Assembly: GCF_000422245.1 (NCBI RefSeq)
Contig: NZ_ATHI01000031.1
Location: forward strand, 1 to 64,000
Direction: 5' to 3'
Length of the DNA: 64,000 nt
Source: Alkalidesulfovibrio alkalitolerans DSM 16529
Lineage (GTDB): Bacteria; Desulfobacterota; Desulfovibrionia; Desulfovibrionales; Desulfovibrionaceae
The notes under the pieces were generated by a model, which was not told the DNA's origin, searched no databases, and was given only the letters and a program-made list of their open reading frames with translations. Position numbers and translations under genes: made by a program. The stretch's first letter is position 1; each line of letters begins with the position of its first letter. Positions 49,202-63,470 of the stretch are shown in pieces.

Positions 49202-49218
49202 TGGACACGTTTTTTGCA
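49202..49218 (+). promoter_or_regulatory. Sigma-54-like promoter with an 11-base spacer
   Basis: TGGACACGTTTTTTGCA resembles TGGCACGNNNNTTGCA with one extra base, so GG and GC are 11 bases apart instead of 10. The position (33 bp before the ATG) is right for a promoter, but function is doubtful unless the spacer is tolerated. The inverted repeat CATTGTC/GACAATG at 49131-49153 lies upstream. Confidence 0.35.
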
Positions 49219-49249: not shown

Positions 49250-49936
49250 ATGCGCAATAAAAGAATGTTCATTTCATTGTTGCTGGCGGCTGTTTTGGCC
49301 TTGGCGATTCAGGGTGCGGCTTTTGCGGCATCCATTCTCTACATCGAGTACAATGACGTCTATACCGAGGATAGCGTGGCGCCAGGCGGGGCCACGCCTT
49401 GGCTCACGGCGCTCTTTGCCGATCAGCCCGCGGGTGGGGTGCTTCTGACCTTGGCCGCACCCAATCTGCTTTCCGGCGAATTCGTGGCCAACTGGTATTT
49501 CAACTTCAATCCCGAGAAGGATCTGGAGGCTTTGGTCTTCACGCATGTGGACGGCGTCATGCCGATCACGTCCAAGGATTTCACCAGTGAAGACGCCTTG
49601 ATAGCGGGCATGGGGCTGCGCATGGACGTCAATGTCCCCTATCCCAATCCGCCCTCCAAACGCTTCGCGGACGACATGCTCTCGAAAATCCTCATCACCG
49701 GTCTGAGCGACCTGACTGCCGATGATTTTAACTTCAGAATCGAGAAGCATGATGCCTTGTTCATATCAGTGGCTCATATTCGCGGCACCGGAGAAGGAAA
49801 CGAATTCAGCGCCTGGGTCAAGGGGTATGACCCACCCCCGCCTCCGGCGGTTCCCGAACCCGCGACCTTGTTCCTGGCTCTCTCCGGCCTGGGGGCGGCC
49901 GCGCTGGCCCGCAAGCGGGGCGCTCGTCGGAACTAA
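49250..49936 (+). CDS. PEP-CTERM sorting-domain protein 1
   Basis: 228 residues. Signal peptide 1-27 (cleavage after AFA), a ~170-residue beta-rich mature region with no recognised domain, a Pro run (PPPPP near 197), then the C-terminal sorting signal: VPEPATLFLAL, a hydrophobic helix and the basic end RKRGARRN. Such proteins are cut by an exosortase and released or anchored at the surface, often with exopolysaccharide. GGAGG lies ~10 nt before the ATG. Divergent in sequence from the other two PEP-CTERM genes here. Confidence 0.88.
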   Translation: MRNKRMFISLLLAAVLALAIQGAAFAASILYIEYNDVYTEDSVAPGGATPWLTALFADQPAGGVLLTLAAPNLLSGEFVANWYFNFNPEKDLEALVFTHVDGVMPITSKDFTSEDALIAGMGLRMDVNVPYPNPPSKRFADDMLSKILITGLSDLTADDFNFRIEKHDALFISVAHIRGTGEGNEFSAWVKGYDPPPPPAVPEPATLFLALSGLGAAALARKRGARRN

Positions 49937-50080: not shown

Positions 50081-52723
50081 TCATCCAGCTTTTCCTGCCC
50101 GCAGCAGGCTATCGATGCGCTCGGCAAGACTCGCGGCGTGAATGGGTTTTCGGGCGCACGCCCGCACCCCGAGGGCCATGGCCTCGGGAATGCGGGAGGC
50201 GCTTTGCGCATCGACGAGGGCCACGACCGCCATTTGCGGGAATGTTTTCAAGGCGGTCGCCAAAAGTGGAACCTCCGCGATGCTCAGGTCGATGTTCATG
50301 ACGGCTAGGCGGTATTCGAACTGGGAGAGAAAATCCAACGCCTCGGCTGCGTCGGCAACGGCGTCCACTTGGTGACCGGCCTGCTCCAGGGCTAGGGCGA
50401 GGGAATCGCGCATCGCTGGGTCGGATTCGGCGACAAGAACGTCGCAGACCATGGCCATGGGGGGGCGGTGTTGCATAAAAGCCGACACGTCTGAATTCGA
50501 GGCCCGATGCATCTGGTCCCTGGTCGGCAGAGCCAACGTGAATTCGGTCCATTCTCCCTCCCGGCTGCTTACGTCCAGGCTGCCATGATGGTTGCTGGCG
50601 ATGCCGTGGCAGACGGAAAGTCCAAGGCCGAGGGGCGATCTGCCGCCGGTGGTGAAGAAAGGATCGAAGACTCTCGGCAGCATCTCTCTGGGGATGCCAC
50701 TGCCCGTGTCGCGCAGGCCGAGAACGATGCGGGAGCCGTTCAGGCCGAGGCGCGTCGTAATGGTTATGTGCCCGTCCCCGCGGTCCTCCACTGCGTTCAG
50801 GGCGTTTAGCAACAGGTTGACGATCAGGCGTTTCATTTGGGCCTGATCCACCATGACGTCCGGCAGATCCTCCGCGAGATGCAAGACTATGGACACGCCC
50901 GTCCTGGCGTGGCCGCCCACCAGCGGAAGGCATTCCTCGACGAGGCTGTTCAGGGATGTCCGTTCGAACACGGGCTGCGGCGGTCTGGCGAAATCCATGA
51001 GATTTTGCATCGTATCCGTAATTCTTTCGACCTGCGTGAGCATCTGGCGCAGACTGCGCTTCTTCTGCGGATCGCTTTCCTGCCGTTCCAGAAGCTGGGT
51101 TCGGGCCGAGATGATGGACAAGGGATTATTGATCTCCTGGGCCGTTCCCGCAGCCGCATGGCCGATGGCCGAGAGCCGTTCCGCGCGCAGTTCCCTGTCC
51201 CGAGCCTTTTCGAGGCGGCTGAGCGCGGAGGAAAGCTCTTCGGATTTCGTCGTCAGCGTCTCCAGGACCTTCAGCCTGCCGAGATGCGCGCAAGCCAAGT
51301 CCGCTATCTGGCGTAGACACCACAACACCTGTTCGTGTTCGAAAAAAGGCTGTTCATCGATACCGATGGCGAAAATGCATCTCGATTGTTCATCGACGTT
51401 GAACAGGGCGGCGTAACCCTGCTTCGAGAAACGTTCCCGCCTGCCTTCCTGGCTGCGATGCGCCGCTGCCGCATGCTCCGCCAGCGTGTTCTCAATCAGG
51501 TCGCCGAGAAGAGGGGCCGTGTCGGGCGGAATTTCCGGGCGGCCTTCGGCGATGCGCAAGCCGCAGTTTGTTTGGCCGTTCCAGGCCACGCCCTCGAAGG
51601 CGCTTCCCGCATTTTCGGAAAACGCCAAGCAACCTTGATACTCGGGGAGCATTTCGGAAATGCAGGAATGGATCAGGTTGAAGATTTCCGCTTGAGCCAC
51701 AGCCAAGGCGAGACGAGGGCCAAAACGTCCGACGATGGAAAGGAAACGCTGGGGCAGGTTCGGTTCGCCGCGCCTGACGGTCCGCTCGTTGGCGTGCCGG
51801 GAAATGGATTGGTGCGCCCGCGCAAGCGACGTCCGGTAAAAGGAGACAATGTTCGGGTCGAGGCCAATCAATTCGGCCAACGCGCAGTATTTCTCCGGAA
51901 TCCCATGTCTGACTAAGAGCACGATTTCTTCCGCAATGCCCAGTTTGTTCGCCAATCGCTTTGTACGGTCGTGGTCTTCGGGGCGTAGAGCTTCCGACAT
52001 GACGTTTCGCGCGAGGATGTCCCCCAAGGCGACCAATCCGAGGACCGCCGACCGCGCGAGCGAGTCGCGGACGGCGGCCGGTTTGTGGTGGTGAAGCCAG
52101 GCCGCGTTGATGATCGAGGACGGTGCTTTCCAGTGTTCGAGCATCCATTTGCCGACCACGGCATGGTCGAGACCGAAATTGATCACTTCAAGAGCTCTGG
52201 TATCTTTTCGCTGGATGTCCGGCGATTGCGTGATCAAGGTGTAGCGCTCGGGATGGAGGCGAAAGAGCAGCGCCTTGCCGCAGTCATGCACAAGGCCACA
52301 CGCGAACGCCTGGCCCGCCAGCGTCGGGTCGATTTGCTCGGCGAGCGACCTGGCGGCCACGGCGCAGGCTAGGGAGTGGCTTCTGAGGCCGACGATCACT
52401 GGATCGTCTGGAGTGAAGTTTCCGAGCAAAACACGGTGGACATGATGTTCGAGGGTGAAGCCGACGAGGTCGGCCTCGCCGAACCGGGCCATGGCCTTCT
52501 CGATGATTTCGTCTTCCAACATCCCGCCCCGCGCGTTCTTCTCCCAGGCGATGAAACGTTGTGTGAGGAAGCCATCCTGGGCGATGATTCGCGAGATGGA
52601 GTTGTGAGAGACTTTCGAGGACGCCTGGGCAAGCAGGACAGGCGGCGGAGGCAGACGTTTGATCGCCTGCACCAGGGATCGTACGCGCTGACGGGCGTCG
52701 CTGGCCGGTTCGGGGAGGGTCAT
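50081..52723 (-). CDS. HDOD - histidine kinase-like - receiver hybrid protein with both phospho-acceptors substituted
   Basis: 880 residues, no membrane helices seen. HDOD domain at about 15-215 (with LVHDCGKALL and HHHKPAAVRD), a middle region (about 220-480) that may contain a GAF-like fold, a coiled coil (about 485-515), a kinase core and a C-terminal receiver (about 757-875). The H box reads GTAQEINNPLS, with Gln where His is expected in AHEINNPL. The ATPase motifs (LLLNALNAV, DTGSGIP, FDPFFTT, GLGLSVCHG) are intact. The receiver has VMNIDLS, Asn where the acceptor Asp belongs, but keeps the Lys in ARKPI. Probably a non-phosphorylating ATP-binding signalling scaffold. Confidence 0.88.
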   Translation of the reverse strand: MTLPEPASDARQRVRSLVQAIKRLPPPPVLLAQASSKVSHNSISRIIAQDGFLTQRFIAWEKNARGGMLEDEIIEKAMARFGEADLVGFTLEHHVHRVLLGNFTPDDPVIVGLRSHSLACAVAARSLAEQIDPTLAGQAFACGLVHDCGKALLFRLHPERYTLITQSPDIQRKDTRALEVINFGLDHAVVGKWMLEHWKAPSSIINAAWLHHHKPAAVRDSLARSAVLGLVALGDILARNVMSEALRPEDHDRTKRLANKLGIAEEIVLLVRHGIPEKYCALAELIGLDPNIVSFYRTSLARAHQSISRHANERTVRRGEPNLPQRFLSIVGRFGPRLALAVAQAEIFNLIHSCISEMLPEYQGCLAFSENAGSAFEGVAWNGQTNCGLRIAEGRPEIPPDTAPLLGDLIENTLAEHAAAAHRSQEGRRERFSKQGYAALFNVDEQSRCIFAIGIDEQPFFEHEQVLWCLRQIADLACAHLGRLKVLETLTTKSEELSSALSRLEKARDRELRAERLSAIGHAAAGTAQEINNPLSIISARTQLLERQESDPQKKRSLRQMLTQVERITDTMQNLMDFARPPQPVFERTSLNSLVEECLPLVGGHARTGVSIVLHLAEDLPDVMVDQAQMKRLIVNLLLNALNAVEDRGDGHITITTRLGLNGSRIVLGLRDTGSGIPREMLPRVFDPFFTTGGRSPLGLGLSVCHGIASNHHGSLDVSSREGEWTEFTLALPTRDQMHRASNSDVSAFMQHRPPMAMVCDVLVAESDPAMRDSLALALEQAGHQVDAVADAAEALDFLSQFEYRLAVMNIDLSIAEVPLLATALKTFPQMAVVALVDAQSASRIPEAMALGVRACARKPIHAASLAERIDSLLRAGKAG

Positions 52724-53089: not shown

Positions 53090-53848
53090 TCAGCTCATTT
53101 TGCGCAGCCGTCTGGCGAACATGGCCCCTGCGCCGCCCAAAAGCAGAAGCATGGTGCCGGGTTCGGGCGTGGGCACCGGTCCTGTCCCGTAGAGGACGTC
53201 GTTGGCGCAGGTGAGCGCGAAGCCGTAGATGAACTCACCGCCGTTGCCGCCGAAGAATATCGGCGAATTGGAGAGATCCCAGAGGGCAGTGTAGGTGGTG
53301 GAAGTGTTGGGTTTGGAGTTGCGCCAGCCGGAGAACTCGGCGTAACCGAGAAGCTCGGAATCACCGAGATCGGCCTTGACCGGATGGTCGTAGCGAGGAA
53401 GGAAGCCGCTCGGCGCAACGGAGAAGTAGTAGGAGCCCGGATCGGCGAAGTCGAGGCTTACCCCGTACACGGCCCAGTCTCCCGGCTGCCGCGCGGTGGC
53501 GTAGTCAGTGAGCCGCTCTTGGCTCGTGATGACGTAGTCCCAGGTCCCGTCGGCGTTGACGTCGAAAAACCAGTCAGCCGGAGCGAAGGCGTCCCAGCCG
53601 CTCTGGGTGGGGTACTTGTAGTCTATCTGGATGCCGGTCAGGTAATGGCCGTCGAAGGTAAACACCCCGCCGAGAATGTCGGGGGTTCCCCACACGTCCT
53701 TGCTGTTTTGCTCGGCGCCGTATTTGGCGTTCTGACTCGGGAAGCCGGGCCAATGGATCGTGCCGTCTCCAAACACGAAGTCCGCACGGGCATTCGGGGC
53801 GAAAAGCATGCAGGACAGAAGCGCAAAGAGGAAAACGGCTTTTTTCAT
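53090..53848 (-). CDS. PEP-CTERM sorting-domain protein 2
   Basis: 252 residues. Signal peptide 1-22 (after ARA), a beta-rich mature part with an Asp-rich FFDVNADGTWDYV segment that may bind calcium, and the C-terminal signal PTPEPGTMLLLLGG followed by RRLRKMS. No enzymatic motif recognised. Probably an exported surface protein processed by exosortase. AAGGAG lies ~8 nt before the ATG at 53848, and a sigma-54 promoter (53882-53897) is directly upstream. Confidence 0.9.
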   Translation of the reverse strand: MKKAVFLFALLSCMLFAPNARADFVFGDGTIHWPGFPSQNAKYGAEQNSKDVWGTPDILGGVFTFDGHYLTGIQIDYKYPTQSGWDAFAPADWFFDVNADGTWDYVITSQERLTDYATARQPGDWAVYGVSLDFADPGSYYFSVAPSGFLPRYDHPVKADLGDSELLGYAEFSGWRNSKPNTSTTYTALWDLSNSPIFFGGNGGEFIYGFALTCANDVLYGTGPVPTPEPGTMLLLLGGAGAMFARRLRKMS

Positions 53849-53881: not shown

Positions 53882-53897
53882 AGCAAGGGATATGCCA
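53882..53897 (-). promoter_or_regulatory. Sigma-54 promoter of PEP-CTERM gene 2
   Basis: On the minus strand TGGCATATCCCTTGCT: matches TGGCACRNNNNTTGCW except T for C at one position, with 10 bases between GG and GC. The start site would be near 53871. Confidence 0.82.
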
Positions 53898-53931: not shown

Positions 53932-54315
53932 ATGGACCGGCGATTGCAGCGAGAGTTCGATCGCATTCTCGAAATGATCGGCGCTACCTCGGAGGCTCGC
54001 TTGGTATACGTGCTTGCGCTTATCGCCGCGATTCTCGTCAGCCAAGCCATTCAGGCGGCGGACGACCTCTTGAGCAAGCTCGGAGCGATATCCCTGGCCC
54101 ACGGCGTGCTGGTCGGATACGTGGAGATTTACGTCTGTAAACATCTGATGGAATGGATCGGGTTATCCCTCGACTGGTTGGTGGTTCTGCTCGTGGCTTT
54201 GAGCGCACTGGCCGTTTCCCTCATCAAGATTCACAGGACGGGAACACGTTGGATATTGGCTTTTAATTTCGGCGTGTTGGCTGGTGTCGTCGCGGGCGGA
54301 TTCCTACTTGTCTGA
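53932..54315 (+). CDS. Small integral membrane protein, unknown function
   Basis: 127 residues with about four hydrophobic segments (about 22-42, 53-70, 77-98, 107-127) and short charged connections. No motif recognised. It is divergent from PEP-CTERM gene 2 with only ~80 bp between start codons and is followed by the acyltransferase gene 210 bp downstream. No good ribosome-binding site precedes the ATG; a TTG at 53944 is an alternative. A link to the PEP-CTERM system is suggested only by position. Confidence 0.6.
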   Translation: MDRRLQREFDRILEMIGATSEARLVYVLALIAAILVSQAIQAADDLLSKLGAISLAHGVLVGYVEIYVCKHLMEWIGLSLDWLVVLLVALSALAVSLIKIHRTGTRWILAFNFGVLAGVVAGGFLLV

Positions 54316-54384: not shown

Positions 54385-54400
54385 TGGCACATTTCTCGCT
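54385..54400 (+). promoter_or_regulatory. Sigma-54 promoter of the FeeM-like acyltransferase
   Basis: TGGCACATTTCTCGCT matches TGGCACRNNNNTTGCW with a single change (C for T before GC) and correct spacing. It is 127 bp upstream of the ATG at 54527, giving a leader of ~115 nt. Confidence 0.8.
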
Positions 54401-54526: not shown

Positions 54527-55396
54527 ATGGAGCGTTCAATTGAGCGCAGGCGGACCATTCGGATCCGCCGCTCGGCCCTCACTGCGGCCAAGTTGGGAGA
54601 CCTGGACAGACCAAGCATCAAGATCGCCGAGACACTCGACGAGCTTTCTCAAGCCTTTAAGCTCATCTACGCGGAATACAACAGCCAGGGGTACATCAGT
54701 GCTCAGCATCCCAAGCAGATGCTGTACAGTGTTTATAACTTTCTGCCAAAAACGTGTGTCTTTATTTTTCAATCCTTCAAAGACGTTATTTCAACGATCT
54801 CATACACTCCTGATACGAAACTGTTCGGAGTGCCGATGGACTCGCTATACAAGAGTGAGCTCGATGGGCTGCGGGTGCAGGGGAGGAAGATCGTAGAGAT
54901 AGGGTCTCTTGCGACAGAAAGAAGCGTTCGTGGGAAGAACGTTGTCATGTATTTGTACAAAGCTGTCATAAATTATGCGTTTCTGACAAGGGTCAATGAT
55001 CTTTGCCTCATGGTCAATCCGAAGCATGTCAGGTTTTACTCGGACATCATGCTGTGCGAGCAGCTTGGTGAAGAGAAATTCTACGAGGCCGTGAACGCCC
55101 CCGCAGTCGCCATGCGCGTGAACTTCGACACCTATCAGGAAAAACTGCGAGAAGTTTACGGTGACAGTGATTTCGAGACTGATCTGGCCTCGTTCTTTCT
55201 GAAAATGAACTACAGTTCGGTCGATCCCGACATCGAGGCCATCGACGTTGAACGCAACCAACTTCTCGATTATGACGCGGCCCGCGATCTGCTGATGCAC
55301 AAGCCGACGATACTCGAAGGGCTCACCCAGAAGCAGTATGAGTACATTGAGCGGATGTACCATAAGGCCATTTACGTCCCATCCATGGTCGCCTGA
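54527..55396 (+). CDS. FeeM-like N-acyl amino acid synthase / GNAT acyltransferase
   Basis: 289 residues. Resembles the LuxI/FeeM branch of GNAT acyltransferases: IAETLDELSQAFKLIYAEYN (entry helix), a central PDTKLFGVPMDSLY strand, EIGSLATERSVRGKNVVMYLYKAV (acyl/pantetheine loop region), and LCLMVNPKHVRFYSDIML, like the terminal GNAT helix. It would join a long acyl chain from an acyl carrier protein to an amino acid. FeeM-type synthases are known to be associated with PEP-CTERM/exosortase genes, as here. GGGGAAGG precedes the ATG. A ThiF-nitroreductase gene follows after 29 bp and is probably co-transcribed. Product unknown. Confidence 0.82.
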   Translation: MERSIERRRTIRIRRSALTAAKLGDLDRPSIKIAETLDELSQAFKLIYAEYNSQGYISAQHPKQMLYSVYNFLPKTCVFIFQSFKDVISTISYTPDTKLFGVPMDSLYKSELDGLRVQGRKIVEIGSLATERSVRGKNVVMYLYKAVINYAFLTRVNDLCLMVNPKHVRFYSDIMLCEQLGEEKFYEAVNAPAVAMRVNFDTYQEKLREVYGDSDFETDLASFFLKMNYSSVDPDIEAIDVERNQLLDYDAARDLLMHKPTILEGLTQKQYEYIERMYHKAIYVPSMVA

Positions 55397-55425
55397 GTCC
55401 GAACCCTTTCTTGTCGGGGGAATCG

Positions 55426-57474
55426 ATGCTGTCCCAGGATTCCAAGATGCCTCTCCACGAAAAATGGTCAAGGGGCCGTGTTGATTACCAGGATATCGCC
55501 TTTGCGAGAAATCACGGCCTGTTTTCCATAGACGAGCAGGATGCCCTGGCCGAGGCCGTGGTGGCGATACCTGGGCTTGGCGGAGTCGGGGGACAGCATC
55601 TCATATCACTCGTGCGGTGCGGGTTCAGAAGGTTTCGTCTGGCGGAACCAGACAGGTTCGAGTTGGTCAACGTCAACCGACAGGCCGGTGCATCGATCGA
55701 TACGCTCGGGCGCAAGAAACTCGATGTCATGTGCGAAATGGCCAGGGCCATCAATCCCTTTATCGAAACCGAGCTGTTTGCGGACGGCGTGACCGAGGGC
55801 AACCTCGACGCGTTTCTCGGCGGCGCGACCATGGTGGTGGATGGGCTTGACTTCTTCGTGTTCGACATGCGGCGGCGCATGTTCATGCGCGCGAAGGAAA
55901 TGGGCGTGCCCGTGATAACGGCAGGGCCGCTTGGCTTCAGCACGGCTATGCTGGTGTTCTCGCCCAGAGGGATGTCCTTTGACGAATATTTCGACATCCA
56001 TGACGGTTTGAGCCAGGAGGAATGCTTCCTGCGATTCGCCATGGGACTTGCTCCACGCGCCGTCCATTTCAGGTATGTGGACCGGACGCGGATCAGTTTG
56101 CAGCGCCGCAAGGGGCCGTCGTCGTTCATAGCTTGCCAGGCATGCGCCGCTATGGCCTCCATGGAGGCCGTGCGCATCGTTCTCGGGCGGCCGGGACTTC
56201 GTTCCGCGCCATCCTACCTGCAGTTTGATCCCTACTTCGGAAAACTGTGCGTCGGGCGCCTGGCCTGGGGCAATCGCAACCCCGTGCAACGGGCCAAGCT
56301 CACCGTGGCCAGGACCTTTCTTCTGGCGCGCCAAGGACGGATCGGTCATCAGGAGCCCGCGCAGCGTCCCAGGCTGCCCGCACCCCAGGGAGAGCAAGGC
56401 GGCGGCGTAGTCTCAGGCGAGGTGTTCAGGTATCTCGTTGCCGCCGCAGTGGCCGCCCCTTCCGGCGACAATGTCCAGCCCTGGCGTTTTTCCAGGAACG
56501 GAGACACGCTGCGCGTGCATATGGTCGCCGAAGCGGACACATCATTCTTCAATATCCGTCAGATAGCCACGCAGATATCCTGCGGCGCGGCGGTCGAAAA
56601 TATTGTCGTCGCGGCGAGCGAACTCGGCTTGTCGGCCGATGTGCGCCTGCCGGGAGCGATTGGAGGCGACGGCCTCATCGCCGAGGTCGGGCTGGACCGG
56701 GGCGCGTCCGAGGCCGATCCCCTCTGCGAGGTCATCTGGGAGCGTTGCACGAACCGGCGGCTCTTCAAGCGAAAAGAGATCTCCACGGGCCTTGTCGGCC
56801 GCTTCGCCGCCGAGGCAGAACGCCTGGGCTGCCGCTTGCACACGGTGCGCGGCCGCGAGGATCTCAAGGCGCTCGGGCGGCTCGTTTTTCAGGCGGATCG
56901 TATTCGTACCGAGCACCAGGGCCTGCACGAGCATTTCGCTCACATGGTTCGCTTCACTCCTCAAGAGGCCGAGCAAACGCGCGACGGGTTGCCCCTGAAA
57001 AATCTCTATGGCGGATTCGCGGGCGAGCAGTTCCTCAAGCTGACCCGGCCGTGGTCCGCCATGCGCGTGGCCAATGCCATCGGCGCGGGCCGCATGGTGG
57101 CCATGCACTCGGCGCGGGGCATCGTGAACAGCGGGGCCGTGTGTCTGCTGACCGCGCCGGGCTTCGGTTGGGCCGACTTCGTGAACGGCGGGCGCGCCTT
57201 GGAGCGCTGCTGGCTCAAGCTGACGGCCCTGGGACTGGCCATGCAGCCCATGACCGCCATAACCCTGTTTCGTCTGCGCTGGGACATGGAGGGCGAGCAG
57301 GCGTTCTCACCCCGCCACGGCAAAATGCTCAAAGCCCTGTGGCCCGAATTCGACGCGCTTTTTCCCGCGGTCGATTTCTCGCGCGAAGGGCAGGTCATGC
57401 TCTTCCGCATCGGCTACGCCAGGCCCATCCGGTACGGAACCTATCGCAAGCCCGTCGAGCAATTCCTGATGTGA
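55426..57474 (+). CDS. ThiF (E1-like)-nitroreductase fusion protein (Rv1355c/MoeY-like)
   Basis: 682 residues. N-terminal E1/ThiF-type adenylating domain (about 35-270): nucleotide motif IPGLGGVGG, DRFELVNVNRQAG with the E1 Arg, GRKKLDV, VVDGLDFF, and one Cys pair ACQAC rather than the two CXXC zinc pairs of MoeB. A linker (about 280-320) leads to a nitroreductase-family flavin domain (about 325-670) with AAAVAAPSGDNVQPWRF, WERCTNRRLFKR, GLAMQPMTAI and a final RIGYARP. Predicted to activate a carboxylate with ATP and carry out an FMN-dependent redox step, perhaps on the product of the adjacent acyltransferase (inference). GGGGG precedes the ATG. Confidence 0.85.
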   Translation: MLSQDSKMPLHEKWSRGRVDYQDIAFARNHGLFSIDEQDALAEAVVAIPGLGGVGGQHLISLVRCGFRRFRLAEPDRFELVNVNRQAGASIDTLGRKKLDVMCEMARAINPFIETELFADGVTEGNLDAFLGGATMVVDGLDFFVFDMRRRMFMRAKEMGVPVITAGPLGFSTAMLVFSPRGMSFDEYFDIHDGLSQEECFLRFAMGLAPRAVHFRYVDRTRISLQRRKGPSSFIACQACAAMASMEAVRIVLGRPGLRSAPSYLQFDPYFGKLCVGRLAWGNRNPVQRAKLTVARTFLLARQGRIGHQEPAQRPRLPAPQGEQGGGVVSGEVFRYLVAAAVAAPSGDNVQPWRFSRNGDTLRVHMVAEADTSFFNIRQIATQISCGAAVENIVVAASELGLSADVRLPGAIGGDGLIAEVGLDRGASEADPLCEVIWERCTNRRLFKRKEISTGLVGRFAAEAERLGCRLHTVRGREDLKALGRLVFQADRIRTEHQGLHEHFAHMVRFTPQEAEQTRDGLPLKNLYGGFAGEQFLKLTRPWSAMRVANAIGAGRMVAMHSARGIVNSGAVCLLTAPGFGWADFVNGGRALERCWLKLTALGLAMQPMTAITLFRLRWDMEGEQAFSPRHGKMLKALWPEFDALFPAVDFSREGQVMLFRIGYARPIRYGTYRKPVEQFLM

Positions 57475-57850: not shown

Positions 57851-58693
57851 TTAGGCCTTGTTGCGGCGGCGGCGGGAAGCAGCCAGGCCGAGGAGGCCGG
57901 AGCCGAGGATCAGCAGGGTGCCGGGCTCGGGAGTGGCCACGACCGCGGGGTCGGAGCTGTAGAATTCCCAGAAGGCGCCGGTCGGGTTGTTGGGATCGCT
58001 CGTGAAGACCTTGGCCTGGCCGTAGAAGTTCACGTCGAGGTCGAAGAGATCTTCGATGGGATCGTTGATCTGGATCAGACCGCTGCTGGCCGAGCCGTCC
58101 ACCGCGTTCAGGCCGTAGAAGGAGTCGGCGACCAAGGTGTTGGCGCCGAGGCCGGCGGCCGAGGGAAGCGCCAGGCTCCACCAGTAGCCGTCTTCAATCG
58201 AGAGGCTCAGCCACAGGCTGCCGTCGGTGGCCGAGGCGACGCTCGCGGCCTCGCTGGTGAACATCAAGGGAGTGTTGGACTCGAACCACTTCAGGACCAC
58301 GCCCTGGGCGAGATCGGCGTCGCTGATCACGCCGTAGGGATCGCTCACGGTCGGGGTCTCGAAGATGATAATGACTTGATCGTCGTTGACCGGGGTGACC
58401 GAAGCCACCTGCGTGAAGAAGTAACCCTGCAGGTACTGGGTGTTCAGGGTCGGGATCCAGTCCGGGGAGACCGGAGTCGAGGCCCAGTCGATGGCATCGA
58501 TGCGCGCGATGCCGTAGAAGATGTCGCCCGGAAGGATGAGGTCGTTGTCGCCCTCGACGGGAATGCGGTTTTCGAAGTTGGTGAAGGTGATGAAGTTGAA
58601 CCCGGGGCCGAGCGTGGGTTGCGCGAACGCGCTTCCCGCGCAGAGCAGCAGGGCCAACAGGGCCATTGCCAGGATCGTCTTGATGCGTTGCAT
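57851..58693 (-). CDS. PEP-CTERM sorting-domain protein 3
   Basis: 280 residues. Signal peptide 1-24 (after AFA), a ~220-residue secreted region rich in Asp, Asn, Ser and aromatic residues without a known domain, and the sorting signal ATPEPGTLLILGSGLLGLAA with the basic end RRRRNKA. CTGGAGGAC precedes the ATG at 58693, and a sigma-54 promoter lies 50 bp upstream. Likely an abundant exported protein of the exosortase system. Confidence 0.92.
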   Translation of the reverse strand: MQRIKTILAMALLALLLCAGSAFAQPTLGPGFNFITFTNFENRIPVEGDNDLILPGDIFYGIARIDAIDWASTPVSPDWIPTLNTQYLQGYFFTQVASVTPVNDDQVIIIFETPTVSDPYGVISDADLAQGVVLKWFESNTPLMFTSEAASVASATDGSLWLSLSIEDGYWWSLALPSAAGLGANTLVADSFYGLNAVDGSASSGLIQINDPIEDLFDLDVNFYGQAKVFTSDPNNPTGAFWEFYSSDPAVVATPEPGTLLILGSGLLGLAASRRRRNKA

Positions 58694-58742: not shown

Positions 58743-58758
58743 TGCATGGGGCGTGCCA
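58743..58758 (-). promoter_or_regulatory. Sigma-54 promoter of PEP-CTERM gene 3
   Basis: On the minus strand TGGCACGCCCCATGCA: matches TGGCACRNNNNTTGCW with one change (A for T) and a 10-base spacer. The start site would be near 58732. Confidence 0.85.
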
Positions 58759-59012: not shown

Positions 59013-60062
59013 TCAGCGGTTGTCCTCGATGTAGACTTCCATGCGCAGGCCGACCGGCAAAGTGGGGTGTTCGTCAAGAGTGACCAGGGTTTCGAGCACC
59101 TTGGTGTCCTTGCGTTCCGAGGGGGAGTCGGAATGCACGGTCTTTCGGCCCATCAGGCCTCCGATGCGCGTGATCGTGCCCCAGAACCGCGCGTCGCCGA
59201 AGCCTTCGGCCGTGGCGTAGGCCCGTTGGCCCAGGCGCAGCCGCCCCACGTCTCGCTCGTCCACCTCCACGCGCAGACGCAAGGTGCTTATGTCGCCCAC
59301 GGTCAGAACCGGGCTGTCGAAAAAGACGGACACCATCTCGCCTGCCCTGCGGTGTATCTTCAGCACGTTTCCGCCCTTCGGCGCGTGGATGCGGGTTTTG
59401 TCCAGAAGCGCCCGGGCCTCCGCTTCTTCATTTTGTGCGGCTTCGAGCGTGGAGAGGGCGATGACGATGTCTTCCCGGCGTCCTCTGTCGCGTGCCAGGA
59501 GCTGCTGCCGACGCATCTCATGCTCGGCCGCGGCGGTCTCGTAATCCCGCGCGGCGCGGTCGGCCGTCTCCTGGTCCACCAGCCCTTGAGCCAGAAGCGA
59601 GGCACGGCGTTCGGCTTCGATGCGCGCGATGCGCATCACCGTTTCGGCCTGCTCCAGGGCGGCCAGGGCTTCGCGTTTTTCCTCGGGGCGCGAGCCGGAC
59701 ATGGTCCGCTGTACTTCGGCCTTGGCAGCGGCCACACGGGCCGTGGCCGCGTCGAGCCGGGCCAGGTGCTCGGCGTTGACCAACTCGGCCAGCACGGCTC
59801 CCTTCGACACGCTGTCTCCTTCCTCGACATGCACGGCCGCAAGGATCCCGGGGGTGTCGAAGCCGAGCCTAAGCTCTTCCGAAATGGGCTCGACCCTGCC
59901 CGGAGCCACGATCCAGGCGTGCGTGTCCTTCGGGATCGCCGCGATGAACGAAGGCTGCTGGGCTTTTGATTCCTCCTGGGAAGAGAACAGCCCGGCGAAA
60001 TGCGCGCCGAGCGCGATCAGGGCGGCGAGGAGCGCGAAAAAGACGATGCGGCCTGGTTTCAT
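59013..60062 (-). CDS. HlyD/DevB-like membrane-fusion protein of an ABC exporter
   Basis: 349 residues. One N-terminal membrane anchor (about 6-26), a biotinyl-lipoyl half-motif (IVAPGRVEPISEE), a long periplasmic coiled-coil hairpin (about 100-225), then barrel segments (IHAPKGGNVLKIHRRAGEMV). Matches the DevB type that joins a DevA/DevC ABC pump to outer-membrane export. ATGA overlap of 4 bp with the ATPase gene. Third gene of the devCAB-order operon. Substrate unknown. Confidence 0.88.
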   Translation of the reverse strand: MKPGRIVFFALLAALIALGAHFAGLFSSQEESKAQQPSFIAAIPKDTHAWIVAPGRVEPISEELRLGFDTPGILAAVHVEEGDSVSKGAVLAELVNAEHLARLDAATARVAAAKAEVQRTMSGSRPEEKREALAALEQAETVMRIARIEAERRASLLAQGLVDQETADRAARDYETAAAEHEMRRQQLLARDRGRREDIVIALSTLEAAQNEEAEARALLDKTRIHAPKGGNVLKIHRRAGEMVSVFFDSPVLTVGDISTLRLRVEVDERDVGRLRLGQRAYATAEGFGDARFWGTITRIGGLMGRKTVHSDSPSERKDTKVLETLVTLDEHPTLPVGLRMEVYIEDNR

Positions 60063-60811
60063 GGGGCGGTCTCCTGGGCGGGAGTGGGACATGTGCTTCC
60101 CGCCGGGTCGCTCCCGGCGGGCAGTATCCGGCCGTCCTCGATGCGGACGACCCTGTCGGCGTATTCGATGATGCGCGGATCGTGGGTCACGATGACCAGG
60201 GTCCGTTGCAGGTCGTGGGCCAGTCCACGCAGAAGGTTCAGCACGGAGCGGCCGGTTTCGGAGTCCAGCGCGGCGGTGGGCTCGTCCGCAAGGATTATGC
60301 CGGGCTCTCCCGCCAGGGCCCTGGCGATGGCCAGACGCTGCTTCTGACCGCCGGAAAGCTTGGCCGGATACTCATTGAGCCTGTCGCCAAGGCCCACGGC
60401 CGAAAGGCCCGCCGTGGCCGCCTTGCGCGCCGCAACGCCCTTGATTCCCTTCAGGTCCAGGGAGACGAGCACGTTCTGCAGCACGGTCAGCGTCGGGAAG
60501 AGATGGTATTCCTGAAAAATGAAGCCGATGTGGCGCAGTCGCACCAACGACAGAGCGTCCTGACCTGCCTTGGTGACGTCCTGGCCCGCTATGCGCACGA
60601 CTCCGCTGTCCGGACGCAGGATGCAGCCCATGATCGAGAGCAGCGTGGTCTTGCCGGAGCCCGACGGCCCCATGAGCAGCAATATCTCCCCCCGGCCCAC
60701 CGACAGGCTCACGTCGTCGAGGGCTATGGTCGCGCTCGTGCCGCTGCCGAAGCGTTTGCCGACGCCCATGATCTCGATGGGGGCCAGGGAGTCGTTGGCT
60801 GCAACGTGCAT
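60059..60811 (-). CDS. DevA-like ABC transporter ATPase
   Basis: 250 residues. Walker A MGPSGSGKTTLL, Q-loop FQEYHLFPTLTVLQNV, signature LSGGQKQRLAIARAL, Walker B IILADEPTAALD, switch His in VIVTHDP. MacB/LolD/DevA-like group that drives transport across the envelope together with an FtsX-type permease. 2 bp separate it from the permease gene and 4 bp overlap it with the HlyD-like gene. Confidence 0.93.
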   Translation of the reverse strand: MHVAANDSLAPIEIMGVGKRFGSGTSATIALDDVSLSVGRGEILLLMGPSGSGKTTLLSIMGCILRPDSGVVRIAGQDVTKAGQDALSLVRLRHIGFIFQEYHLFPTLTVLQNVLVSLDLKGIKGVAARKAATAGLSAVGLGDRLNEYPAKLSGGQKQRLAIARALAGEPGIILADEPTAALDSETGRSVLNLLRGLAHDLQRTLVIVTHDPRIIEYADRVVRIEDGRILPAGSDPAGSTCPTPAQETAP

Positions 60812-60813
60812 GG

Positions 60814-61953
60814 TTACCGGCCCTTGAAGACCACAAGCGGGTCGATGCGCGTGACTTTGTTGATGGAGATGAACGAAGCGCCCAGGCACATGGCCAGGGT
60901 GACCGCGAACATGGCCGCCGCGAACTCGAAGGGGATGAGCACCAGCGCGTCGCCGTGGCGGCTGGCGCGTGCGGCGGCCAGGCTCAGGGCCATTCCGGCC
61001 GAGTAGCCGACCACGGCGCTCAACGCGGCCTGCAGGGTGATGATGCGGTAGATGTAGCTGTTTGGCGCGCCCATGGCCTTGAGCGTGGCGAATTCGGGGA
61101 GGTGATCCATGGTCGTGGCGTAAAGCGTCTGGGCCACCACGACCATGCCCACCACGAGGCCGAGCCCGGCCGCCAGGAGCAGGGCCACCCCGGCGCCGGT
61201 GCTGAACATCCAGTAATGCTGGGTCAGTGCGCTGAACTCGGCGGTGGTGAAGACGTCCACGTCGCCCACGGCGACCGCGAGACGTCCTTTCAGATCCTCC
61301 AGGTCGGCCCCTTCCCTGGCCTTGACCAGGATGTAGATGGTCTGGTCCTCGGCCACCGTGGAGTACTGCAGCGCGTTCTTGAAGGAAGCGAAGACGAAGG
61401 GGGAGGTCGTGAAGGAACGGATGCCGCGCGTCATGCCCGCTATGCGGGCGCGGCGATCGTTGATCTCGGCTGTTTCTCCCACTCCTTCGAGGCCGAGCCG
61501 GTCGAGGTAGAGTTCATCGACGAAAACGGTGTCCTCGATGTCCAGCGCCCCGAGCGACCCCTGGATGACGTTCCAGGGGCCGCCCAGGCCCGAACGCGTC
61601 TCGAAACCGACGATCTGGATCGACTCCTGGCCCCCGCGCGGCTTTTTCCAGTTGGCGAACTGGACGATGAACTTGGCCGCCTTCTCCACGTCTGGCACCG
61701 AGAGCGTCCGATAGACCTTGCGCTCGTCCATGGGCAAGGCGATGTCGAAGTTCTTGAGGCCCTTGGAGGCGATCCAGATGTCCGCGCCCGAGTTGTCGAT
61801 CACGCCGGATATGGTCCGTGTGAAGCCTATGAAGATGCCGATCTGCACACTGATGAGGACCACGGCGAAGATGACACCGGTCAGGGTCACGGCGAGCCGG
61901 ATCTTGTCGTGCACCAAATTGCGCAGAGCCAGGGTGAAAGCCATCGACCTCAC
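60814..61953 (-). CDS. DevC-like FtsX-family ABC permease
   Basis: 379 residues. An N-terminal helix (about 20-42), a periplasmic domain (about 45-250) with SGADIWIASKG, and three C-terminal helices, ending with INKVTRIDPLVVFKGR, typical of DevC. Start at GTG 61953 with AAGGA 6 nt upstream; an ATG three codons later is possible. 9 bp downstream of the epimerase stop, so the epimerase and exporter form one operon. In cyanobacteria DevBCA exports glycolipids. Confidence 0.9.
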   Translation of the reverse strand: MRSMAFTLALRNLVHDKIRLAVTLTGVIFAVVLISVQIGIFIGFTRTISGVIDNSGADIWIASKGLKNFDIALPMDERKVYRTLSVPDVEKAAKFIVQFANWKKPRGGQESIQIVGFETRSGLGGPWNVIQGSLGALDIEDTVFVDELYLDRLGLEGVGETAEINDRRARIAGMTRGIRSFTTSPFVFASFKNALQYSTVAEDQTIYILVKAREGADLEDLKGRLAVAVGDVDVFTTAEFSALTQHYWMFSTGAGVALLLAAGLGLVVGMVVVAQTLYATTMDHLPEFATLKAMGAPNSYIYRIITLQAALSAVVGYSAGMALSLAAARASRHGDALVLIPFEFAAAMFAVTLAMCLGASFISINKVTRIDPLVVFKGR

Positions 61954-63454: not shown

Positions 63455-63470
63455 TGGCACGCAATTCGCT
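63455..63470 (+). promoter_or_regulatory. Sigma-54 promoter of the prsT-like gene
   Basis: TGGCACGCAATTCGCT matches TGGCACRNNNNTTGCW with one change (C for T before GC, the same change as at 54385-54400) and correct spacing. Start site near 63481. Confidence 0.82.

Follow-up and report, generated by a model that had tools for sequence, protein, structure and literature searches.

Two adjacent genes of the forward strand, one for a FeeM-like N-acyl amino acid synthase and one for a protein joining a ThiF domain to a nitroreductase-family domain, lie among genes of an exosortase/PEP-CTERM system in a 64,000-nucleotide stretch of Alkalidesulfovibrio alkalitolerans DSM 16529 (contig NZ_ATHI01000031.1, positions 1 to 64,000; hereafter the window). 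The first gene, feeM, runs from the ATG at 54527 to the stop at 55396 and encodes 289 amino acids (aa), matching PF21926 (E = 2e-45 for the 314-aa open frame, 1.6e-45 for the 289-aa form) and PDB 2g0b (E = 1.3e-14). After a gap of 29 bases (55397-55425), the second gene extends from the ATG at 55426 to the stop at 57474, and its predicted 682-aa product combines an E1-like adenylating/cyclizing ThiF domain with a nitroreductase-family flavin domain (NTR). Based on Pfam and NCBIfam matches, conserved residues, and predicted fold, this fusion appears to be of the OxzB/TrzS type. Its 687-aa open frame matches ThiF (PF00899, E = 4.6e-33) and Nitroreductase (PF00881, E = 7.4e-09) in Pfam and PRK14851 (NF011424, E = 2.8e-260) in NCBIfam, where the sole cut-off passed is that of NF006077 (PRK08223, a "hypothetical protein" family covering the ThiF part; 346.9 bits against 266). 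By sequence comparison, the fusion is homologous to the PRK14851 and PRK14852 families yet falls outside both. PRK14852 is a model of 989 positions, of which 6-281 match feeM and those from 305 on match the fusion, suggesting a family with all three domains in one protein. An earlier note on this DNA had described a FeeM-like gene 29 bp before a 682-residue ThiF-nitroreductase fusion, and both coordinates and domains proved right. Directly 5' of feeM is an open reading frame (ORF) of 127 aa (53932-54315, forward strand), hydrophobic by eye and lacking a Pfam or NCBIfam match.

Residue conservation was assessed in an alignment of 19 sequences, comprising the window protein, 16 relatives from named loci, an N. 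vulgaris fusion, and a Mycolicibacterium Rv1355c-family protein (L005, which has an internal stop, was left out of the alignments). The ThiF residues D76, R85, K98, and D142, which match the MoeB catalytic set, were invariant in all 19 sequences, and D142 was kept in 25/25 sequences of a larger alignment. In the nitroreductase part, Q607 was present in 19/19 and R494 in 18/19 sequences. For the mycobacterial fusion enzyme TrzS, the D217A mutant has been reported to form no cyclized product and the R540A mutant to be impaired in desaturation (PMC12856293). Judged by motif, D142 likely corresponds to the catalytic D217 of TrzS. Likewise, R494 and Q607 are likely the equivalents of TrzS R540 and Q651, since R527 and Q638 of the Mycolicibacterium homolog are 111 residues apart, identical to the R540-Q651 spacing in the M. 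smegmatis enzyme. In the FeeM protein, E124 was invariant in 23/23 aligned sequences and aligned with position 96 in the chain of 2g0b. Glu95 has been named as the proposed FeeM active-site residue (PMC4897644), and we took the offset of one as chain numbering; the sequence is consistent with a FeeM/acyl-homoserine-lactone-synthase fold with its catalytic glutamate. An AlphaFold model of the fusion, built from a 25-sequence alignment (mean pLDDT 86.8, pTM 0.60), matched best in the PDB with 2ymv, an Acg homolog (E 1.2e-13, target TM 0.78), followed by the ThiF-fold enzymes AclA, PaaA, MccB, ThiF, and MoeB (AclA, 9egb, ranked second and ThiF, 1zfn, ninth). The TrzS study likewise took 2ymv as the closest structurally characterized FDO (PMC12856293), FDO denoting the FMN-bearing nitroreductase-type domain. 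Model and alignment point to an Acg-like FDO domain with putative R540/Q651-type residues in the window protein.

The two genes also co-occur across a sample of 247 genomes of the phylum, in which kinship among the genomes makes the p-values optimistic. Of 16 genomes matching ThiF(-NTR), 14 did so strongly, at E below 1e-100, and the two others, under 1e-30, were not counted; several of the 14 have ThiF and NTR as separate matches, and not all of them thus carry a fusion. FeeM, counted at E up to 1e-8, was found in 22 genomes and exosortase in 87. FeeM was present in 14/14 genomes matching ThiF(-NTR) strongly versus 8/233 others (Fisher p = 1.3e-17), and the association held at the genus level (8/8 versus 6/163, p = 2e-10) and among exosortase-positive genomes only (12/12 with ThiF(-NTR) versus 4/75 without). 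Exosortase itself occurred in 12/14 of the ThiF(-NTR) genomes and in 75/233 of the others (p = 1e-4). The earlier note had held that its proposal would fall if the two genes showed no conserved linkage; such linkage was found, although ThiF and FeeM lie on different contigs in 6/14 genomes. Less than 7 kb separates their match starts in 7/14 genomes, and in one further genome the distance is 50 kb.

In N. vulgaris DP4, plasmid pDVUL01 encodes FeeM, ThiF, and NTR domains in one 989-aa protein (DVUL_RS15680; L086:11113-14082), annotated merely as ThiF family adenylyltransferase, and the genes separated by 29 bp in the window are thus fused there. Co-occurrence, adjacency, and this one-protein fusion support that feeM and ThiF-NTR belong to one pathway. 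The different contigs and the 50-kb distance mentioned above are what would be expected of chance neighbors without a common pathway, a prospect that we regard as next to negligible given the p-values at genome and genus level, the fusion protein, and the nearness of the genes in loci of several phyla. A reading of the one-protein form as an oxazolone synthase was not found in the open-licence literature. Two more N. vulgaris plasmid records match the ThiF-NTR part, which was the only part compared.

Enzymes of this kind have been described. TrzA (Rv1356c) is reported to N-acylate tryptophan, and TrzS, a ThiF-FDO fusion of the Rv1355c type, to cyclize N-acyl-tryptophan with ATP and desaturate it with O2 to tryptazolones (PMC12856293). 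TyzACB yields tyrazolones, OxzB and TyzB/TyzC act similarly on acyl-tyrosine, and OxzAB of P. rubra consists of an acyltransferase and a ThiF-nitroreductase fusion (PMC10404671). The statement of the earlier note that such fusions lack an assigned reaction is thus out of date, and its description of the pair as a candidate undescribed one fails for the enzymology; a new enzymology was rejected here as well, as the TyzACB, TrzAS, and stieleriacine papers describe such chemistry.

Based on the genes, residues, predicted folds, linkage, and fusion, we propose that the pair is probably an operon for making an N-acyl oxazolone (azlactone), similar in kind to OxzAB, TyzACB, and TrzAS. In the proposed scheme, FeeM would move an acyl chain from acyl-ACP or acyl-CoA onto the amino group of a probably aromatic amino acid, the ThiF domain would adenylate and cyclize the N-acyl amino acid, and the FDO domain would remove two hydrogens to give an alpha,beta-desaturated oxazolone. 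The product might then reach the outer envelope, through the DevBCA-type exporter in the window and, in relatives, through pumps of the MMPL or MacB type together with a LolA-like carrier and a DUF1302 barrel. There it could serve as matrix lipid, signal, or acylating reagent in concert with PEP-CTERM proteins and exopolysaccharide. The order of acylation, adenylation, and flavin redox chemistry envisaged by the earlier note is likely on this scheme; the reductive outcome that it also allowed is unlikely, an N-acyl oxazolone being the expected product because of the published TrzS, OxzB, and TyzB/TyzC reactions.

Producers of N-acyl dehydrotyrosine carry genes for the same three activities, ThiF and nitroreductase genes among them, and no oxazolones were observed (PMC12479983). 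By analogy, ThiF could serve only for activation, with a free open-chain N-acyl dehydroamino acid as the end product and an oxazolone at most as a transient. Oxazolones are reported to be hydrolyzed in acid and opened by methanol or ethanol (PMC12856293), which fits this outcome; the same lability can itself explain the missing oxazolones in Stieleria, and gentle quenching of the TrzS and TyzB/TyzC reactions is reported to yield oxazolones. We therefore consider an open-chain product unlikely.

A difficulty of its own is that desaturation of the TrzS type depends on O2, yet the source genome carries dsrA and presumably belongs to a sulfate reducer of Desulfovibrionales type, that is, a presumed anaerobe. 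If an N-acyl oxazolone is made, trace O2 or another acceptor would have to serve, or the saturated oxazolone would be the product. With limiting O2, TrzS is reported to accumulate the cyclized saturated intermediate (PMC12856293), and the flavin domain might accordingly not desaturate in anaerobes, the pathway stopping at the saturated oxazolone without O2 or the domain reducing the activated acyl group. The conserved R/Q residues and the FDO-type fold make this quite unlikely, as does a cytochrome bd gene in the genome, which suggests exposure to O2; an electron acceptor other than O2 is possible too. The E1/MoeB/ThiF fold, together with PEP-CTERM proteins nearby, would also suit an E1-like protein modification in which ThiF activates a protein or peptide C-terminus instead of a lipid acid. 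This is highly improbable: ThiF is most often partnered by an N-acyltransferase, with which it is fused in N. vulgaris, and no ubiquitin-like protein was identified among the recurring neighbor families, though none was searched for specifically. PEP-CTERM processing, moreover, is generally placed outside the cytoplasm.

Desaturated or not, the N-acyl oxazolone expected from the pair would be made within a PEP-CTERM locus, as the earlier note had claimed. Five PEP-CTERM motifs in the genome exceed the cut-off, three of them at 49.8, 53.1, and 57.9 kb, and a sixth, under the cut-off, is located at 107.9 kb. The corresponding genes in the window, assigned by profile matches, are 49250..49936 on the forward strand, 53090..53848 on the reverse strand upstream of the pair, and 57851..58693 (PF07589), which lies convergently, on the reverse strand, directly downstream of the pair and has homologs that likewise follow the pair in L052 and L055. 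About 6 kb past the pair begin prsT (likely start 63612, extending beyond the window; PrsT TIGR02917, E = 1.5e-113) and the XrtA polysaccharide genes, prsT being followed by genes for a TIGR03013 glycosyltransferase, an export protein, a chain-length protein, a tyrosine kinase, an ATPase, a TIGR03016 protein, and a deacetylase. Exosortase A lies at 102 kb on the same contig, 45 kb past the pair, and is followed by PrsK, so that PEP-CTERM proteins, XrtA polysaccharide genes, exosortase A, and PrsK are all found on one contig.

The DevBCA-type genes that the earlier note had pointed out are likewise present at 59013-61953 on the opposite strand, each scoring below its family cut-off: a DevB/HlyD-type membrane fusion subunit, a possible exporter part (59013..60092; TIGR02971, E = 2.3e-30), a DevA-type ABC ATPase (60059..60889; TIGR02982, E = 1.7e-71), and a DevC-type permease of the FtsX fold (60814..61953; TIGR01185, E = 2.7e-41). 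It is plausible that this exporter is a partner of the pair. The window contig holds the same parts as the pDVUL01 locus, where one flank carries a TPR gene at the position of prsT (its annotation reads simply TPR protein), the XrtA polysaccharide genes, and an exosortase about 27 kb off, and the other flank carries three PEP-CTERM genes and, about 8 kb on, an ABC exporter with a periplasmic adaptor. Between the first two PEP-CTERM genes of the window, the reverse strand encodes an 880-aa hybrid histidine kinase (50081-52723); families of general histidine kinases, none reaching its cut-off, make up the 25 best NCBIfam matches listed.

Related loci were collected in one scan of genome contigs, which gave 47 loci; 43 were used after dropping L081-L084, which are ThiF-only loci of Nitrospirae/Nitrospirota with E values of 4e-8 to 9e-6. 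An acyltransferase gene was present in 32/43 loci (23 FeeM-type, 15 TIGR03694-type, 6 both). In the 26 loci flanked by 6 kb or more on each side, from which neighbor counts were taken, we found an acyltransferase in 23, an exporter (an MMPL pump, or a DevA/MacB-type ATPase with an FtsX permease) in 18, a PEP-CTERM ORF (found by regular expression) in 16, a LolA-like gene in 15, and a DUF1302 gene in 14. With the same profiles, 20 control stretches of 20 kb, hand-picked rather than random from six sampled genomes, had no acyltransferase, MMPL, LolA-like, DUF1302, FtsX, or exporter match, and the ATPase profile alone matched in 4. PEP-like ORFs occurred in 3/20 controls, one looking real and two spurious, so the PEP-CTERM counts may be inflated.

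Of the 32 loci whose sequence extends 2.5 kb or more past the pair, 10 have, as in the window, a convergent PEP-CTERM gene at most 1.7 kb downstream. The order FeeM, ThiF-NTR, convergent PEP-CTERM, DevB, DevA, DevC is common to the window, L049 (Desulfovibrio), and L055 (Salidesulfovibrio), whose fusion proteins are 50% and 46% identical to that of the window, respectively; in the window and L055 an epimerase comes next. In a tree of the ThiF domain (46 rows), which requires no fewer than three transitions between the fused and split states, the window groups with L052 of the Desulfovibrionaceae (97/89), and the gammaproteobacterial fusions lie in another clade amid split betaproteobacterial genes. 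A single dedicated PEP-CTERM partner protein is unsupported, as the convergent downstream ORFs, with C-termini removed, form separate groups (window, L052, and L055; L041 and L042; L044 and L073; L045 and L046; and L047, L049, and L057 each alone). The TIGR03694 profile had no match in the source genome, and since this search gave no match anywhere, absence is not inferred.

Some loci stand out for their own composition. An exosortase gene is found 3-5 kb away from the FeeM and ThiF genes in L065, L068, and L080 (Candidatus Omnitrophota), and two of these loci, L065 and L068, additionally carry NTR, a MacB-type ABC pair, LolA-like, and DUF1302 genes. L075 and L077 (Sterolibacterium) have, beside the ThiF gene, a 443-aa FeeM-type open frame with an extra C-terminal region, which may be a FeeM-PilZ fusion of the kind described previously (PMC4897644). 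L070 comes from a contig assigned to an archaeal bin (a Candidatus Pacearchaeota archaeon record), which could be misbinning, and carries genes for FeeM, ThiF, and a nitroreductase.

Candidate promoters hint at a possible regulatory connection in some of these genomes. Taking TGGCACN5TTGCW as the sigma-54 (-24/-12) consensus, the window contains five sites with one mismatch versus 2.2 expected, a number reached in 8/100 shuffles. The count itself is unremarkable; the placing is remarkable, as 4/5 sites lie on the correct strand 5' of feeM, two PEP-CTERM genes, and prsT. These candidates are at 54385..54400 (forward strand, ~127 bp before feeM), 53882-53897 (reverse strand, ~34 bp before the PEP-CTERM gene 53090..53848), 58743-58758 (on the strand of the PEP-CTERM gene 57851..58693, ~50 bp before it), and 63455..63470 (forward strand, ~141 bp before the likely prsT start). 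A weak candidate with two mismatches (49203-49218) precedes the PEP-CTERM gene 49250..49936. In 26 kb of pDVUL01, only three sites were found; one precedes the fused synthase gene by ~48 bp, and the two others precede the TPR gene and a PEP-CTERM gene. Across the 43 loci, a site preceded 15/35 PEP-CTERM ORFs versus 0.45 expected and only 1/30 FeeM ORFs, so that a sigma-54 rule for FeeM genes in general failed. RpoN control of a PEP-CTERM gene has been demonstrated in Aquincola (PMC9850573). With sites before the window feeM and the N. vulgaris fused gene and few before FeeM genes elsewhere, sigma-54 co-regulation of the synthase with PEP-CTERM genes is plausible in those two and not general.

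Several observations weigh against reading the pair as an oxazolone operon tied to the exosortase system. The fusion misses the cut-offs of PRK14851 (865.1 of 1170 bits), PRK14852 (547 of 1337 bits), and the TrzS/Rv1355c equivalog NF005901 (259.4 of 476 bits), and the bridge to TrzS runs through a Mycolicibacterium homolog of only 24% identity on a very long tree branch. An acyltransferase was not seen in 11/43 loci, 5 of these on pieces shorter than 6 kb; among the 14 FeeM matches, that of G147 is weak (9.8e-10); the ThiF partner is missing in 8/22 FeeM genomes; and exosortase was not detected in 2/14 ThiF genomes. Conversely, a strong ThiF(-NTR) match is lacking in 75/87 exosortase genomes, and on these grounds we rejected the idea of a general exosortase cofactor. 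As for regulation, two-mismatch sigma-54 sites are not above chance in the window (36 versus 31.5 expected), and feeM is preceded by no site in L049 and L055 and by a two-mismatch site only in L052. To these points are added the separation of the two genes in part of the genomes, the scarcity of sites before FeeM ORFs, and the O2 dependence of desaturation, all discussed above.

Why bacteria make N-acyl oxazolones has been called a "major unresolved question" (PMC12856293), and the mode of PEP-CTERM attachment at the surface is left open in the available account (PMC12188702). The locus joins these two questions in one neighborhood whose parts recur in other genomes, and it raises the further question of how an anaerobe carries out a desaturation that elsewhere depends on O2. 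An archaeosortase has been reported to need the lipid-synthesis genes PssA/PssD (PMC7157517), a precedent for a very unlikely reading in which the acyl-oxazolone would be an activated lipid for the exosortase system that, once exported, would serve at the cell surface to acylate or anchor exopolysaccharide or PEP-CTERM proteins, as a bacterial counterpart of PssA/PssD in a subset of exosortase systems. This reading is weakened by the many exosortase genomes without the enzyme. The plasmid of strain Hildenborough, which reportedly is easy to cure, bears four of five PEP-CTERM genes (PMC1569441); with the DP4 synthase being one megaplasmid gene, the question is open to simple genetics and metabolite analysis.

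Overall, the kind of enzyme is known, and what appears new is the exosortase/PEP-CTERM setting, the one-protein N. vulgaris form, and the recurring export genes, none of which we found in print. FeeM-type/NasY synthases have reportedly been linked to PEP-CTERM/exosortase (Craig 2011), the likeness to the window being a FeeM-type enzyme beside a PEP-CTERM system. In the open-licence literature we found no description of an oxazolone synthase pair in an exosortase/PEP-CTERM system or of the recurring outer-membrane export genes of such loci; the sole paper found with both oxazolone and exosortase concerns methanobactin (PMC8776678), PMC3226654 proved unrelated, and the table of a Rubrivivax PEP-CTERM polysaccharide cluster has two THIF-type and two ABC genes, with no comment in the portion available (PMC3684757).

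With the OxzAB system of Pseudoalteromonas rubra (tyrazolones, phenazolones), the window shares an acyltransferase gene and a ThiF-nitroreductase fusion. The gammaproteobacterial fusions, which are putative OxzAB-type proteins, are 31-34% identical to the window protein, belong to a separate clade, and pair with a TIGR03694-type acyltransferase, whereas the window fusion pairs with a FeeM-type one. With TrzAS of mycobacteria and Rhodococcus (Rv1356c/Rv1355c; tryptazolones), it shares an acyltransferase, a ThiF-FDO fusion, and likely D217/R540/Q651 equivalents. On the other hand, identity to the plasmid-borne Rv1355c-family homolog is only about 24%, the score stays below the Rv1355c equivalog cut-off, and the text available for TrzAS does not mention exosortase (PMC12856293). 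Clusters for stieleriacine, thalassotalic acid, and kyonggic acid also have N-acyl amino acid synthase, ThiF, and nitroreductase genes (PMC12479983); they differ in their open-chain dehydro products, unfused genes, and, in Stieleria, methyltransferases. The tyrazolone system TyzACB of M. tuberculosis has the same three activities, with ThiF and FDO as separate proteins, and is adjoined by mmpL9 (PMC10404671), just as MMPL-family pumps recur in the loci related to the window.

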